Below, piece by piece: positions 13,735 to 29,518 of a stretch of DNA of 64,000 bases. Positions within the stretch are counted from its first letter, which is position 1. Every line of letters begins with the position of its first letter. A program made the position numbers and the translations under genes. Origin of the DNA: Fibrobacter sp. UWB16 (GTDB lineage: Bacteria > Fibrobacterota > Fibrobacteria > Fibrobacterales > Fibrobacteraceae); NCBI RefSeq assembly GCF_900215325.1, contig NZ_OCMS01000002.1, forward strand, positions 62,001 to 126,000, written 5' to 3'. The notes under the pieces are model-generated. The model made no database searches. It was given only the letters and a program-made list of their open reading frames with translations, and had not been told where the DNA came from.

Positions 13735-13769
13735 GTCATGCCCGCCACTGAGCGGGCTTTGCTTTTTTT
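13735..13769 (+). terminator. Rho-independent terminator of nrdDG; dispersed GTCATGCCCG palindrome
   Basis: GCCCGC (13740-13745) and GCGGGC (13752-13757) form a stem with a six-base loop, followed by TTTGCTTTTTT. The left flank GTCATGCCCG places it in the dispersed palindrome family also seen at 22514, 47898, 51165 and 53260. Confidence 0.85.
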
Positions 13770-13773
13770 AGGC

Positions 13774-15051
13774 TTAATTCTTCAACGCTGTAATCGGCAC
13801 TACGAATACTCCGTCAGGACGCTTGTAGGCGGCGTTGCTCATTCCGCAAATGACGCAGAGATTGGATGGGGGAATTCCTGCTGGATCATTGGAAATATCG
13901 TTCTGTATATCCAATAAGTTGCGTGCTGCTTCATCAATCTGATTTGCTCCGAGCTTTATTTCAAAAGCGTTCCAGCTACCATCGGGCATCTCAATAACGG
14001 AGTCTATTTCCTTGTTTGCGTAGTCTTGGTAATGGTATAGTTTTCCTCCGAAGGATTTTGCGTAGATATCCAAGTCGCGTTCGCAAAGTGATTCGAAAAG
14101 AAAGCCTAGAGTGTTCAGATCATTTAAAAGTTTGCTAGGTGTCGCTCCCAATAGTGCTACTGCAAGTGAAGGGTCGGCGAGGTGTCGTTTTTCGGCTTGC
14201 TTGACTCTAAGCTTGGAGCGTATTTTTGTGCAGAATGGAGGCTGGTTCTCGACAAGAAAGAGTCTTTTTAAAACATCAAGGTAGCTTGCTATTGTATCCG
14301 AGTCGATGTCGTCATCATCGATTTCTTTGATGTCGTTCTTCAAAATTTTGTTTGTTGCTGTGGTTGATTCGTTTCTGGCAAGAGATCTGAGTAACAACGT
14401 CATCTTGCTTTTGTTTCGTTTGATTCCGTCAAGACGATCCATATCGTCGTCGATAATGGCTTCAAGATAGGCTTTAGGAATGGCCATGGATTGTTCCGTA
14501 GAAAGTCCAAGATTGCCTGGCCATCCACCGCGAACCACGAGTTCTATCAAGTCGTTTAATTGGACGTCTCCCGTCATGACTGGTTCGATTTTGCCGTTGC
14601 AAATGTCCAGTAACGAAACCTTTCCGCTAGAGGCTCCTGATTCGTATAGCGACATTGGCCGCATGCGAATTTTGGCGATTCGTCCGGCTCCGCTGTGCAG
14701 AACTCCTTTACGCGACGGTGTAGATGAACCTGTCAGGATAAATTGACCCTTGAGCGCACGATGATCAACTTCGTAACGAACGGCGTCCCATACTGACGGA
14801 ACTTCCTGCCATTCATCGATGAGTCGAGGTGTATCTCCGCTTAAAATCAGTTTTGGGTCGAGCTCCGCAAGTTGTCGGTTCTGGAAATTGCCACTTGGGT
14901 CGCCTAGTTCGATTTTGCTGTTGGCGTGATAATCGGAAGTCCAGGTTTTGCCGCACCATTTGGGACCTTCGATGCATACGGCTCCGAAGGTTGAAAGGGC
15001 GTTTTCTATTTGGTTATCGACGATTCTAGGCTTGTAATTTGACGATTTCAT
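13774..15051 (-). CDS. AAA-type ATPase with C-terminal DUF4143 (COG1373 type)
   Basis: The 425-residue protein has an N-terminal AAA_14-like ATPase: Walker A GPKWCGKT at residues 29-36, a Walker B/sensor stretch TPRLIDEWQEVPSVWD near 75-90, and FILTGSSTPSRKG (sensor 1-like) near 110. The second half matches DUF4143, a PD-(D/E)XK-like fold: AKSFGGKLYHYQDYANKEIDSVIEMPDG then WNAFEIKLG, with the candidate D...ExK. The family is abundant in bacteria and of unproven role. ATG 15051 was chosen over 15087 because AAGGGGT lies just before it. A five-copy 23-bp array precedes it. AT-richer than the nrd genes beside it, it looks accessory. Confidence 0.88.
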   Translation of the reverse strand: MKSSNYKPRIVDNQIENALSTFGAVCIEGPKWCGKTWTSDYHANSKIELGDPSGNFQNRQLAELDPKLILSGDTPRLIDEWQEVPSVWDAVRYEVDHRALKGQFILTGSSTPSRKGVLHSGAGRIAKIRMRPMSLYESGASSGKVSLLDICNGKIEPVMTGDVQLNDLIELVVRGGWPGNLGLSTEQSMAIPKAYLEAIIDDDMDRLDGIKRNKSKMTLLLRSLARNESTTATNKILKNDIKEIDDDDIDSDTIASYLDVLKRLFLVENQPPFCTKIRSKLRVKQAEKRHLADPSLAVALLGATPSKLLNDLNTLGFLFESLCERDLDIYAKSFGGKLYHYQDYANKEIDSVIEMPDGSWNAFEIKLGANQIDEAARNLLDIQNDISNDPAGIPPSNLCVICGMSNAAYKRPDGVFVVPITALKN

Positions 15052-15069
15052 ACCCCTTAAAATATATAA

Positions 15070-15173
15070 TCGGTATGATTTTGTCAATATATTCGGTGTG
15101 ATTTGCTGTTTTCATTCGGTTTGATTTGATATTTTCAATCGGTATGATTTTAGATTTTTATTCGGTCTGATTT
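15070..15173 (-). repeat. Five-copy 23-bp-period direct repeat array upstream of the DUF4143 ATPase
   Basis: TCGGTNTGATTT (plus strand) starts at 15070, 15093, 15116, 15139 and 15162, exactly 23 bases apart each time. The eleven bases between copies vary but are AT-rich. A decayed sixth copy in register begins at 15185 (TTTGAT core kept). In the gene's direction the unit reads AAATCANACCGA. The nearest copy ends about 19 bases before ATG 15051. TTGACA occurs at 15087-15082 on the minus strand, but a -10 at normal distance would fall on the ribosome-binding site, so the true promoter may lie beyond the array, which would then be transcribed. Confidence 0.9.
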
Positions 15174-15218
15174 TGTAGAAATACGAAATTTGATCGGAAT
15201 AGGGGTTAATTGTTAAGG

Positions 15219-15249
15219 AAAAAACTCCAACGGAGCATTGGAGTTTTTC
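15219..15249. terminator. Bidirectional hairpin terminator
   Basis: AAAAACTCCAA (15220-15230) and TTGGAGTTTTT (15238-15248) form a perfect 11-bp stem with a seven-base loop and A/T flanks on both sides. It separates the ATPase control region from the GNAT-like gene pair. Confidence 0.75.
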
Positions 15250-15295
15250 GGTATGGTGCGAATGTAAAATTGCTCGGCAAAAATGTACAACCCTC

Positions 15296-15324
15296 TTGAC
15301 GATAGTTTTCCGATAGTCTATATT
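15296..15324 (+). promoter_or_regulatory. Sigma-70-like promoter for the GNAT-like gene pair
   Basis: TTGACG at 15296-15301 and TATATT at 15319-15324 are separated by exactly 17 bases. Transcription would start near 15332, giving a leader of about 75 bases that contains a hairpin over the ribosome-binding site. Confidence 0.65.
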
Positions 15325-15368
15325 TAGTGTACGGATGAGCAGATATATTGCTCTATAAACAACAAAAG

Positions 15369-15401
15369 CCCCGCTGTTTTCAGCATGTCTGCGGGGAGGA
15401 G
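15369..15401 (+). promoter_or_regulatory. Leader hairpin overlapping the ribosome-binding site
   Basis: CCCCGC (15369-15374) can pair with GCGGGG (15391-15396). The right arm overlaps the strong site GGGGAGGAG (15393-15401), six bases before ATG 15408. When folded, the stem would hide part of the site, so translation may be regulated or dampened. This is a fold read by eye. Confidence 0.45.
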
Positions 15402-15407
15402 TTAAAA

Positions 15408-15965
15408 ATGAAGAATGATGTGAAGAATGGTGGCGTCGGCATTTGGCTTGATGAAATTGTTCCTTGTCTCAAGGATACCGAAACTGGCGAAATCAAGGAA
15501 ACGGTTGTATTTAAAATCGAAAGTCGTTCATTCCTGAAAAAATTCAACGAAAAGAACGGTTGGGGAATCAATTGGATTGAAATTCCCGATAATGTTGAGG
15601 TCTTTGCTTTAGCGCTAAAGGAAAATAACGAAATTCAGGGTCTTATCGGAGTAAAAAATGACAAGAATTCCGTGGCTGCATTTATCCATTGGGCTTGTAC
15701 TGCTCCTCGTAATAATAAGCGATTGTGTGGATCGCAAAAATACATTGGGGTAGGAGGACATCTATTTGCTATTGCTGCTGATAAATCAATTCAGTGGGGA
15801 TATCAAGGCGCAATTCACGGCTTTGCCCTTAACAGAGAGCTACTTAATCACTATATTGAAGTATTAGGAGCCATATTTTTAGGGGCTTTGCACGAATACC
15901 AATTTTTCGTGAACGAAAACGCGGCTAAACATCTTTTGGAGACTTACACCTATGAATGGAACTAA
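15408..15965 (+). CDS. GNAT-like N-acetyltransferase
   Basis: The 185-residue protein looks like a GNAT acyltransferase. A beta-strand pair around LALKENNEIQGLIGVKND is followed by IHWACTAPRNNK and KYIGVGGHLFAIAADKSIQW, the latter resembling the acetyl-CoA pyrophosphate loop and helix. GFALNRELLNHYIEVLGA and the C-terminal YTYEWN complete the fold. ATG 15408 has GGGGAGGAG six bases before it and is preferred over an upstream ATG at 15348. It heads a two-gene unit with the overlapping 61-codon gene. GNAT enzymes in small two-gene units can be toxins acting on aminoacyl-tRNA, but the small partner is downstream and shows no ribbon-helix-helix motif, so that role is only a possibility. Confidence 0.65.
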   Translation: MKNDVKNGGVGIWLDEIVPCLKDTETGEIKETVVFKIESRSFLKKFNEKNGWGINWIEIPDNVEVFALALKENNEIQGLIGVKNDKNSVAAFIHWACTAPRNNKRLCGSQKYIGVGGHLFAIAADKSIQWGYQGAIHGFALNRELLNHYIEVLGAIFLGALHEYQFFVNENAAKHLLETYTYEWN

Positions 15966-16137
15966 AGGGCCTGTCATTCTGGCGGAATCCATGGAGGCGT
16001 ATAGGGCCACTCCTGATCCGTACAAAGATGCTCCTTCAATGCATGTGAACTTGTTGGAGTTGTCTCGTTATGCAGAAAGAGTTGGAAAGCCGATGTGCGA
16101 ATTGACAAAGGAAGAAATAGACCAATTCCGGCTGTGA
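15952..16137 (+). CDS. Small protein overlapping the GNAT-like gene, unknown function
   Basis: The 61-residue protein overlaps the 3' end of the GNAT-like gene by 14 bases in another frame, so coupled translation is likely. The N-terminal part (MNGTKGPVILAESMEAYRAT) is polar. The C-terminal half, VNLLELSRYAERVGKPMCEL followed by TKEEIDQFRL, looks like two short helices of a compact interaction domain. No DNA-binding or catalytic motif is visible. By position it could be a partner or antitoxin of the acetyltransferase. An alternative is a translated but non-essential overlap, although the clean amphipathic helices argue for a real product. Confidence 0.6.
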   Translation: MNGTKGPVILAESMEAYRATPDPYKDAPSMHVNLLELSRYAERVGKPMCELTKEEIDQFRL

Positions 16138-16176
16138 TTTGTCTCGTCATCCCTCTTTCTTGATTATATTTATCAC

Positions 16177-29149: not shown

Positions 29150-29518
29150 TTACTTCTTGGCGGCCGGCTTCTTAGCGGCAGTCGGCTTCTTAGCAGCGGC
29201 GGGCTTCTTGGCAGCGGCCGGCTTCTTAGCAGCAGCGGGCTTCTTAGCGGCAGCGGGCTTCTTAGCGGCAGCGGGCTTCTTAGCAGCGGCCGGCTTCTTA
29301 GCAGCGGCCGGCTTCTTGGCGGCAGCGGGCTTCTTAGCAGCGGCCGGCTTCTTAGCGGCAGCGGGCTTCTTAGCGGCAGCCGGCTTCTTAGCAGCAGCAG
29401 GCTTCTTAGCGGCGGCCGGCTTCTTAGCGGCAGCGGGCTTCTTAGCGGCGGCCGGCTTCTTAGCAGCAGCGGGCTTCTTTGCAGCGGCGGGTTTCTTTGC
29501 AACAGTTTTTGTAGCCAT
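29150..29518 (-). CDS. Histone H1-like AAAKKP-repeat protein
   Basis: The 122-residue basic protein reads MATKTVAKKP, then 17 perfect copies of AAAKKP, one TAAKKP and a final AAKK. ATG 29518 follows AAGGAAG and is chosen over an upstream frame extension at 29578. The composition (Ala, Lys and Pro only, over most of the length) is that of the C-terminal tail of eukaryotic H1 and of bacterial Hc1/AlgP-like proteins, which condense DNA without sequence specificity. There is no globular domain. The codons differ slightly between copies (GCC/GCT/GCG), so copy number has been kept by selection or recombination within an 18-bp repeat. A terminator follows. Confidence 0.85.
   Translation of the reverse strand: MATKTVAKKPAAAKKPAAAKKPAAAKKPAAAKKPAAAKKPAAAKKPAAAKKPAAAKKPAAAKKPAAAKKPAAAKKPAAAKKPAAAKKPAAAKKPAAAKKPAAAKKPAAAKKPTAAKKPAAKK

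Follow-up and report, generated by a model that had tools for sequence, protein, structure and literature searches.

Five exact copies of AAATCANACCGA lie at a period of 23 bp on the minus strand before the gene for an AAA_14-DUF4143 ATPase in the analysed stretch of Fibrobacter sp. UWB16 DNA (64,000 nucleotides; the window), and an array of the same period precedes the gene in all members examined of one large clade of this family. The array is probably an iteron-like operator, bound by the ATPase itself and controlling the ATPase's own promoter. In an exact-match scan, TCGGTNTGATTT was located at 15070, 15093, 15116, 15139 and 15162 with zero mismatches, and the repeat unit on the gene strand consisted of AAATCANACCGA plus 11 AT-rich bases (Table 1). 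With up to one mismatch allowed, the motif had 6 matches in the whole window (shuffles: mean 1.9, maximum 5), and motif pairs at 23-bp spacing were confined to this locus in the 3.56-Mb genome. The upstream region gave a lag-23 self-match score of 47.0, compared with 15.2 for the best of 1000 dinucleotide shuffles over lags 8–60, and no stretch of the window outside the array region exceeded 10.4 at lag 23. The five in-register copies described in the initial annotation were thus confirmed. A further, degenerate copy that it had placed at 15185 does keep the register, but its likeness to AAATCANACCGA is weak (CGATCAAATTTC), which makes it plausible rather than proven. The period had also been equated with about two helical turns, which is imprecise: with 10.5 bp per turn, 23 bp makes ~2.2 turns, so that each copy is turned by ~70–80 degrees against the one before it and looks to a different side of the helix.

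Table 1. Features of the array, promoter, ATPase gene and surrounding segment in the window.
Feature	Position	Strand	Basis or remark
Array copy 1, gene-proximal, AAATCATACCGA	15070..15081	-	Within -35/-10 spacer; match scan and lag score
Array copy 2, AAATCACACCGA	15093..15104	-	Match scan and lag score
Array copy 3, AAATCAAACCGA	15116..15127	-	Match scan and lag score
Array copy 4, AAATCATACCGA	15139..15150	-	Match scan and lag score
Array copy 5, AAATCAGACCGA	15162..15173	-	Match scan and lag score
Degenerate sixth copy, in register, weak, CGATCAAATTTC	15185..15196	-	Lag analysis
Predicted -35 box TTGACA	15082..15087	-	10/12 matches jointly with -10 box, spacer 17; relatives arranged alike
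Predicted -10 box TATTTT	15059..15064	-	Promoter pattern match; relatives arranged alike
AAA_14-DUF4143 (COG1373, PDC-S01-like) ATPase gene, 425 aa, ATG at 15051	13774..15051	-	Pfam PF13173 and PF13635; PADLOC PDLC04790
AAA+ ATPase domain, residues 1-150, Walker A GPKWCGKT, Walker B LIDEWQ	14602..15051	-	Alignment and model
Predicted winged helix-turn-helix, residues 214-291	14179..14412	-	Model secondary structure; domain call by the authors
PD-(D/E)xK nuclease-like domain, residues 294-425	13777..14172	-	Alignment, model, Card1/Cdn1 fold matches
Segment of gene plus array, unaligned in a relative keeping both flanks (G001, L260)	13743..15238	.	Genome comparison; boundaries approximate
Inverted repeat AAAAACTCCAACGGAGCATTGGAGTTTTT, terminator-like, array-side segment edge	15221..15250	.	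Sequence and comparison with relatives

The ATPase was matched by PADLOC PDLC04790 (PDC-S01) over residues 5–423 of 425 (E=1.8e-60), and both Pfam AAA_14 and DUF4143 scored above cut-off; a search of the PDB by sequence returned no match. An AlphaFold model (mean pLDDT 88.6) comprised an AAA+ domain, a helical part, a winged-helix-like part (residues 214–291, with helices 214-226, 234-244 and 251-263 and a strand hairpin 267-270/288-291) and an alpha/beta domain. Foldseek matches to the model included the MNS-type ATPases 2qen/2fna, Orc1/Cdc6 on origin DNA, RuvB and the nucleases Card1/Cdn1, all taken as fold-level analogies because TM-scores were modest (0.2–0.5). The Walker A/B residues G29, G34, K35, T36, D79 and E80 were invariant in 32 homologs, as were E320, E348, D350, E364 and K366, for which a catalytic placement is putative.

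The gene-proximal end of the array falls inside a predicted sigma-70-type promoter of the ATPase gene, with the last copy filling the 17-bp spacer between TTGACA (15087-15082) and TATTTT (15064-15059). Promoters were called computationally by pattern matching, and start codons were picked by a simple rule. AAGGGG stands one base 5' of the ATG at 15051 (AAGGGGT-ATG); the earlier description of the array as ending by the ribosome-binding site is amended in that the array end falls in the promoter, not only beside the binding site. Since the array end and promoter boxes are so near this ATG, the mRNA is probably leaderless or nearly so. An alternative TTG start at 15087 was rejected because it lies inside the -35 box and relatives begin at ATG. 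Repeats overlapped or abutted the predicted promoter of the ATPase's own gene in the window and in relatives with a recognisable promoter. A sigma-70-type promoter was recognised in 19 of 32 Fibrobacter and Bacillota cases (5.8 expected in shuffles), mostly with a 17-bp spacer, and a Bacteroidota -7 box in 6 of 26 (1.7 expected). Where a promoter could be recognised, the end of the last unit mostly lay between -9 and +1 relative to the -10 box, or one 23-bp register farther upstream. The last copy occupied the -35/-10 spacer in Fibrobacter and several Bacillota. The array lay entirely upstream of the -35 box in L136, L174, L209 and L212, a layout that would also suit activation; in the Bacteroidota loci L222 and L223 it reached within a few bases of the ATG, where the promoter is uncertain and transcription may cover the repeats. 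In a promoter with a 17-bp spacer, the step from the -35 to the -10 box also amounts to 23 bp (6 + 17). We think nonetheless that the protein, not the promoter, sets the period, because Bacteroidota, with another promoter type, also keep 23.

Upstream regions of DUF4143 ATPase relatives were then compared, as the initial annotation had proposed. Among 122 DUF4143 proteins, 23 was the significant best lag in 41, and the next commonest lag, 33, in 5. On a quick protein tree computed with no bootstrap, a clade with SH-aLRT 100 held 35 members including the window protein, and the array was present in 35/35; Fibrobacter orthologs of the ATPase retained it. Later members were gathered by protein profile only, from virus-labelled contigs, Bacteroidota genomes and Bacillota genomes, and were assigned to the clade by profile score, not re-placed on the tree. 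In the pooled non-redundant clade, 74/74 members had p<=0.02 at lag 23, 39 of them collected after the clade had been defined; the independent count is somewhat below 74, because 5 members (L053, L058, L059, L070, L078) were fetched via the repeat itself and a few more came from genomes so reached. No exception to the array was found among clade members not fetched through the repeat. At the stricter p<=0.01 (100 shuffles, floor ~0.01), 70/74 remained at lag 23; the best lag was 23 or 46 in 70/74, and a lag score of at least 12 was reached by 70 regions at lag 23, with no other lag between 12 and 40 having more than 4 such regions. Of 117 control regions taken from in front of neighbouring genes, 1 showed 23-bp periodicity. 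Array-bearing members represented at least six bacterial phyla (Fibrobacterota, Bacillota, Bacteroidota, Actinomycetota, Chlorobiota and Lentisphaeria). They were located on chromosomes, plasmids and virus-labelled contigs and carried ~3-9 copies at 23 bp. PDLC04790 was tried as a proxy for the clade and rejected as too broad: many of its matches outside the clade, including most of those in Bacillota, had no upstream array. A second DUF4143 clade also had 23-bp-period arrays, in 11/11 members (L031, L033, L035, L040, L051, L097-L099, L101, L034, L038), with a mostly TATGATTTTCATAAA motif that is partly palindromic. Upstream repeats of other DUF4143 proteins (L124, L125, L133, L157, L167) were spaced at 32-33 bp, about three helical turns.

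Across the clade the motif varied widely, in dozens of versions, at a constant period of 23. Versions included AAAAATACAAAACA (L022), GCCAAAGTCTTGGTT (L018-L020), ATAATCTTGGGAAT (L025), GCCAAACTGCCGAA (L170) and GGCGAAACGGTAGTGTA (L231, with a close version in L172, a Chlorobi plasmid). Motifs were compared as folded 23-column profiles over all pairs, and were counted as shared above 99% of the null. All protein pairs of at least 75% identity shared a motif, including 6/6 cross-phylum pairs; at 60-75% identity it was shared in 66% of 70 cross-phylum pairs and 39% of same-phylum pairs, and at 30-50% identity in 2-4% of pairs, whether of the same or of different phyla. Paralogs with different motifs occurred within one genome in Fibrobacter G032 (L017, L046, L048) and Lachnospiraceae G146 (L053, L136). 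By this comparison, motif similarity tracks protein identity, even across phyla, and not the host, a pattern that reading of the motif by the cognate protein would produce and reading by a host factor would not. A sliding-window scan for a protein region that predicts the motif gave its top signal at residues 66-90 (partial correlation 0.41, confounded by ancestry) and a weaker one at residues 186-230; the winged helix was not singled out. Several genomes were rich in the family, with 16-26 DUF4143 matches each in G097, G124, G133, G141, G146 and G150.

An operator array bound by a regulator, perhaps by the ATPase, was one of two readings offered in the initial annotation, and it is favoured by an array that occurs without exception in the clade, a motif that tracks the protein rather than the host, and a predicted winged helix. 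Under the operator reading, the AAA+/winged-helix/PD-(D/E)xK-like protein would bind each 12-15-bp motif through its winged helix, with one subunit, or one fixed assembly of subunits, per 23-bp step, and the resulting ordered oligomer would extend along the DNA into the promoter. In the simplest version the ATPase would repress its own promoter, the last copy often sitting between the -35 and -10 boxes, and a potentially toxic ATPase-nuclease would be held low until something strips the protein from the array. Protein geometry would set the step, so that the step stays fixed, and the motif and the surface that reads it would drift together, giving each paralog or subfamily a private operator. 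An extension that we regard as unlikely is that the private array serves as a sensor: the oligomer would rest on the array, and an event of infection (candidates being competing DNA, altered promoter occupancy or loss of ATP) would free the protein, derepress the gene and release the nuclease. The diversity of private motifs would then insulate paralogs from each other.

The same binding could instead serve activation. The array would then be an upstream activation site, from which the bound ATPase or a co-factor recruits or remodels RNA polymerase, as a positive autoregulator or upon a signal. AAA+ proteins can act as activators, and in L174, L176, L209 and L212 the array is immediately upstream of the -35 box; Fibrobacter and several Bacillota nevertheless have the last copy in the -35/-10 spacer, a position at which bound proteins more commonly obstruct polymerase, and activation is rather unlikely. 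It is decidedly unlikely that the array is an iteron- or centromere-like site of replication or partition, with the ATPase as initiator or motor and the chromosomal copies derived from plasmid modules. Plasmid iterons do have a similar period and direct-repeat layout, Orc1/Cdc6 initiators on origin DNA are among the fold matches, and array-bearing homologs reside on plasmids and virus-labelled contigs. Against this, most sampled copies are single chromosomal genes, the segment missing from a relative with both flanks kept holds the gene and array only, and the invariant predicted nuclease residues would be unneeded by an initiator.

Many regulators bind direct repeats, and one encoded by the host and unrelated to the ATPase could occupy the array; this is very unlikely, as the motif goes with the ATPase from phylum to phylum and paralogs of one genome have different motifs. 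The other reading in the initial annotation, a transcribed repeat leader, is disfavoured. Repeats acting as RNA, whether as such a leader or as a small RNA that regulates or guides the ATPase, would fit the arrays of L222 and L223, which almost touch the start codon, but where a promoter is recognisable the array is mostly or wholly upstream of the -10 box, and an Rfam search found no family match; we judge an RNA role highly improbable. A functionless array left by neutral slippage, that is, by tandem duplication of a 23-bp promoter segment, is extremely improbable. The promoter's own step has the required length and some units hold a -35-like TTGA (L250), yet a single period accompanies dozens of unrelated motifs, also in Bacteroidota, the core is conserved within the 23-bp units relative to variable spacers, and such arrays are absent before neighbouring genes. 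The earlier preference for selected spacing over slippage is therefore strongly supported.

Iterons are direct repeats, spaced by about two helical turns, that lie close to the gene for the protein binding them, and autoregulation through them is known. The iterons of theta plasmids (RepA/RepE/TrfA, winged-helix initiators) resemble the window array in being direct repeats near the gene of a candidate binder. They differ in that the protein here is AAA_14-DUF4143 and not of a Rep family (no Rep domain was found with Pfam in the window ATPase gene, nor the neighbouring Rep-family initiator of an iteron origin), that the array is known here without a replication origin, that its motif is very variable within one protein clade, and that it merges with the gene's promoter. 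Among the best Foldseek matches, Orc1/Cdc6 and the archaeal MNS-type Walker ATPases (2qby, 2qen, 2fna), Orc1/Cdc6 bind origin DNA; the window protein differs from both in its added PD-(D/E)xK-like domain. The defence-island repressor RptR binds direct repeats in a defence promoter, two of them overlapping the -10 box (PMC12255303). RptR is a small dedicated dimeric repressor with 9-bp repeats, whereas here the putative effector itself would regulate, through ~3-9 copies at 23 bp.

COG1373 was correctly said to have no settled role, and is now also catalogued as PDC-S01, a single-gene phage-defence candidate of PADLOC (AAA_14-DUF4143) that the window protein matches over its whole length. As far as its accessible description extends, PDC-S01 is defined by protein only and an upstream array is not described. 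Nothing relevant on DUF4143/COG1373 with repeats was found in the open-access papers searched, an absence that is weak evidence, and a 23-bp array upstream of a DUF4143 ATPase is unreported in the literature so searched. PDC-S01 has been reported to rank fourth in frequency among the defence systems of prokaryotes (PMC12988326) and to be the most frequent single locus in the rumen, with 10,358 occurrences (PMC13356809). An array of fixed period and protein-specific motif, present in all examined members of a large clade, suggests a way in which the protein may assemble on DNA and supplies many natural pairs of protein and motif from which DNA specificity could be read out. Site prediction in genomes and the division of the family into functional clades would also benefit. 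If the sensing reading were true, a candidate immune gene that is among the commonest in prokaryotes would encode a self-binding ATPase-nuclease.

The ATPase is patchy in the genus: any match, mostly distant, was found in 36/61 genomes, and a protein 100% identical to that of the window occurs in another species (G014). In relatives, the same flanking nrdG-like gene is present but the ATPase is not; in close relatives other than the one aligned over both flanks (Table 1), everything beyond 13742 was missing. At the nrdG-like site, genes for a YhcG nuclease, a HARE-HTH protein, a GIY-YIG protein or a peptidase are found in other strains; the site is variable and possibly defence-rich. The array and promoter were kept before a remnant of the last 22 ATPase codons in G030 (L044, near 1460-1710) and G080 (L043, 1500-1660), apparently the same deletion in two species. 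When 84,980 genomes were scanned for the window motif, 27 stretches were obtained, of which 9 adjoined a clade ATPase, ~4 were orphan arrays and the rest were chance matches or other repeats; the scatter over unrelated loci that would have spoken against a link to this gene was not seen, bar these few orphans. The orphan AAATCNNACCGA-type arrays (L060 near 5293, L074 near 6489, L054 near 6865, L057 near 518) had 2-5 copies, some with a -35-like box, and neither ATPase nor remnant was found nearby. Copies of GTAAATCGGACCGACGTGGTAAC in L077 near 5103 (Chitinivibrionales) and of AAATCGAACCGAAATGGTGGCAC in L071 near 3613 (Flavobacterium) were likewise spaced at 23 bp, with no clade ATPase in the stretch covered. 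Elsewhere in the window, two overlapping small ORFs (185 and 61 aa; 15408-16137) had no Pfam match, and their layout recalls a two-gene toxin-antitoxin-like module. The segment holding both (~15239-16155) was absent from G014, and its start was present without the ATPase in G001. Tandem 18/36-bp units at 29160-29505 are probably a coding repeat of an alanine/lysine-rich protein.
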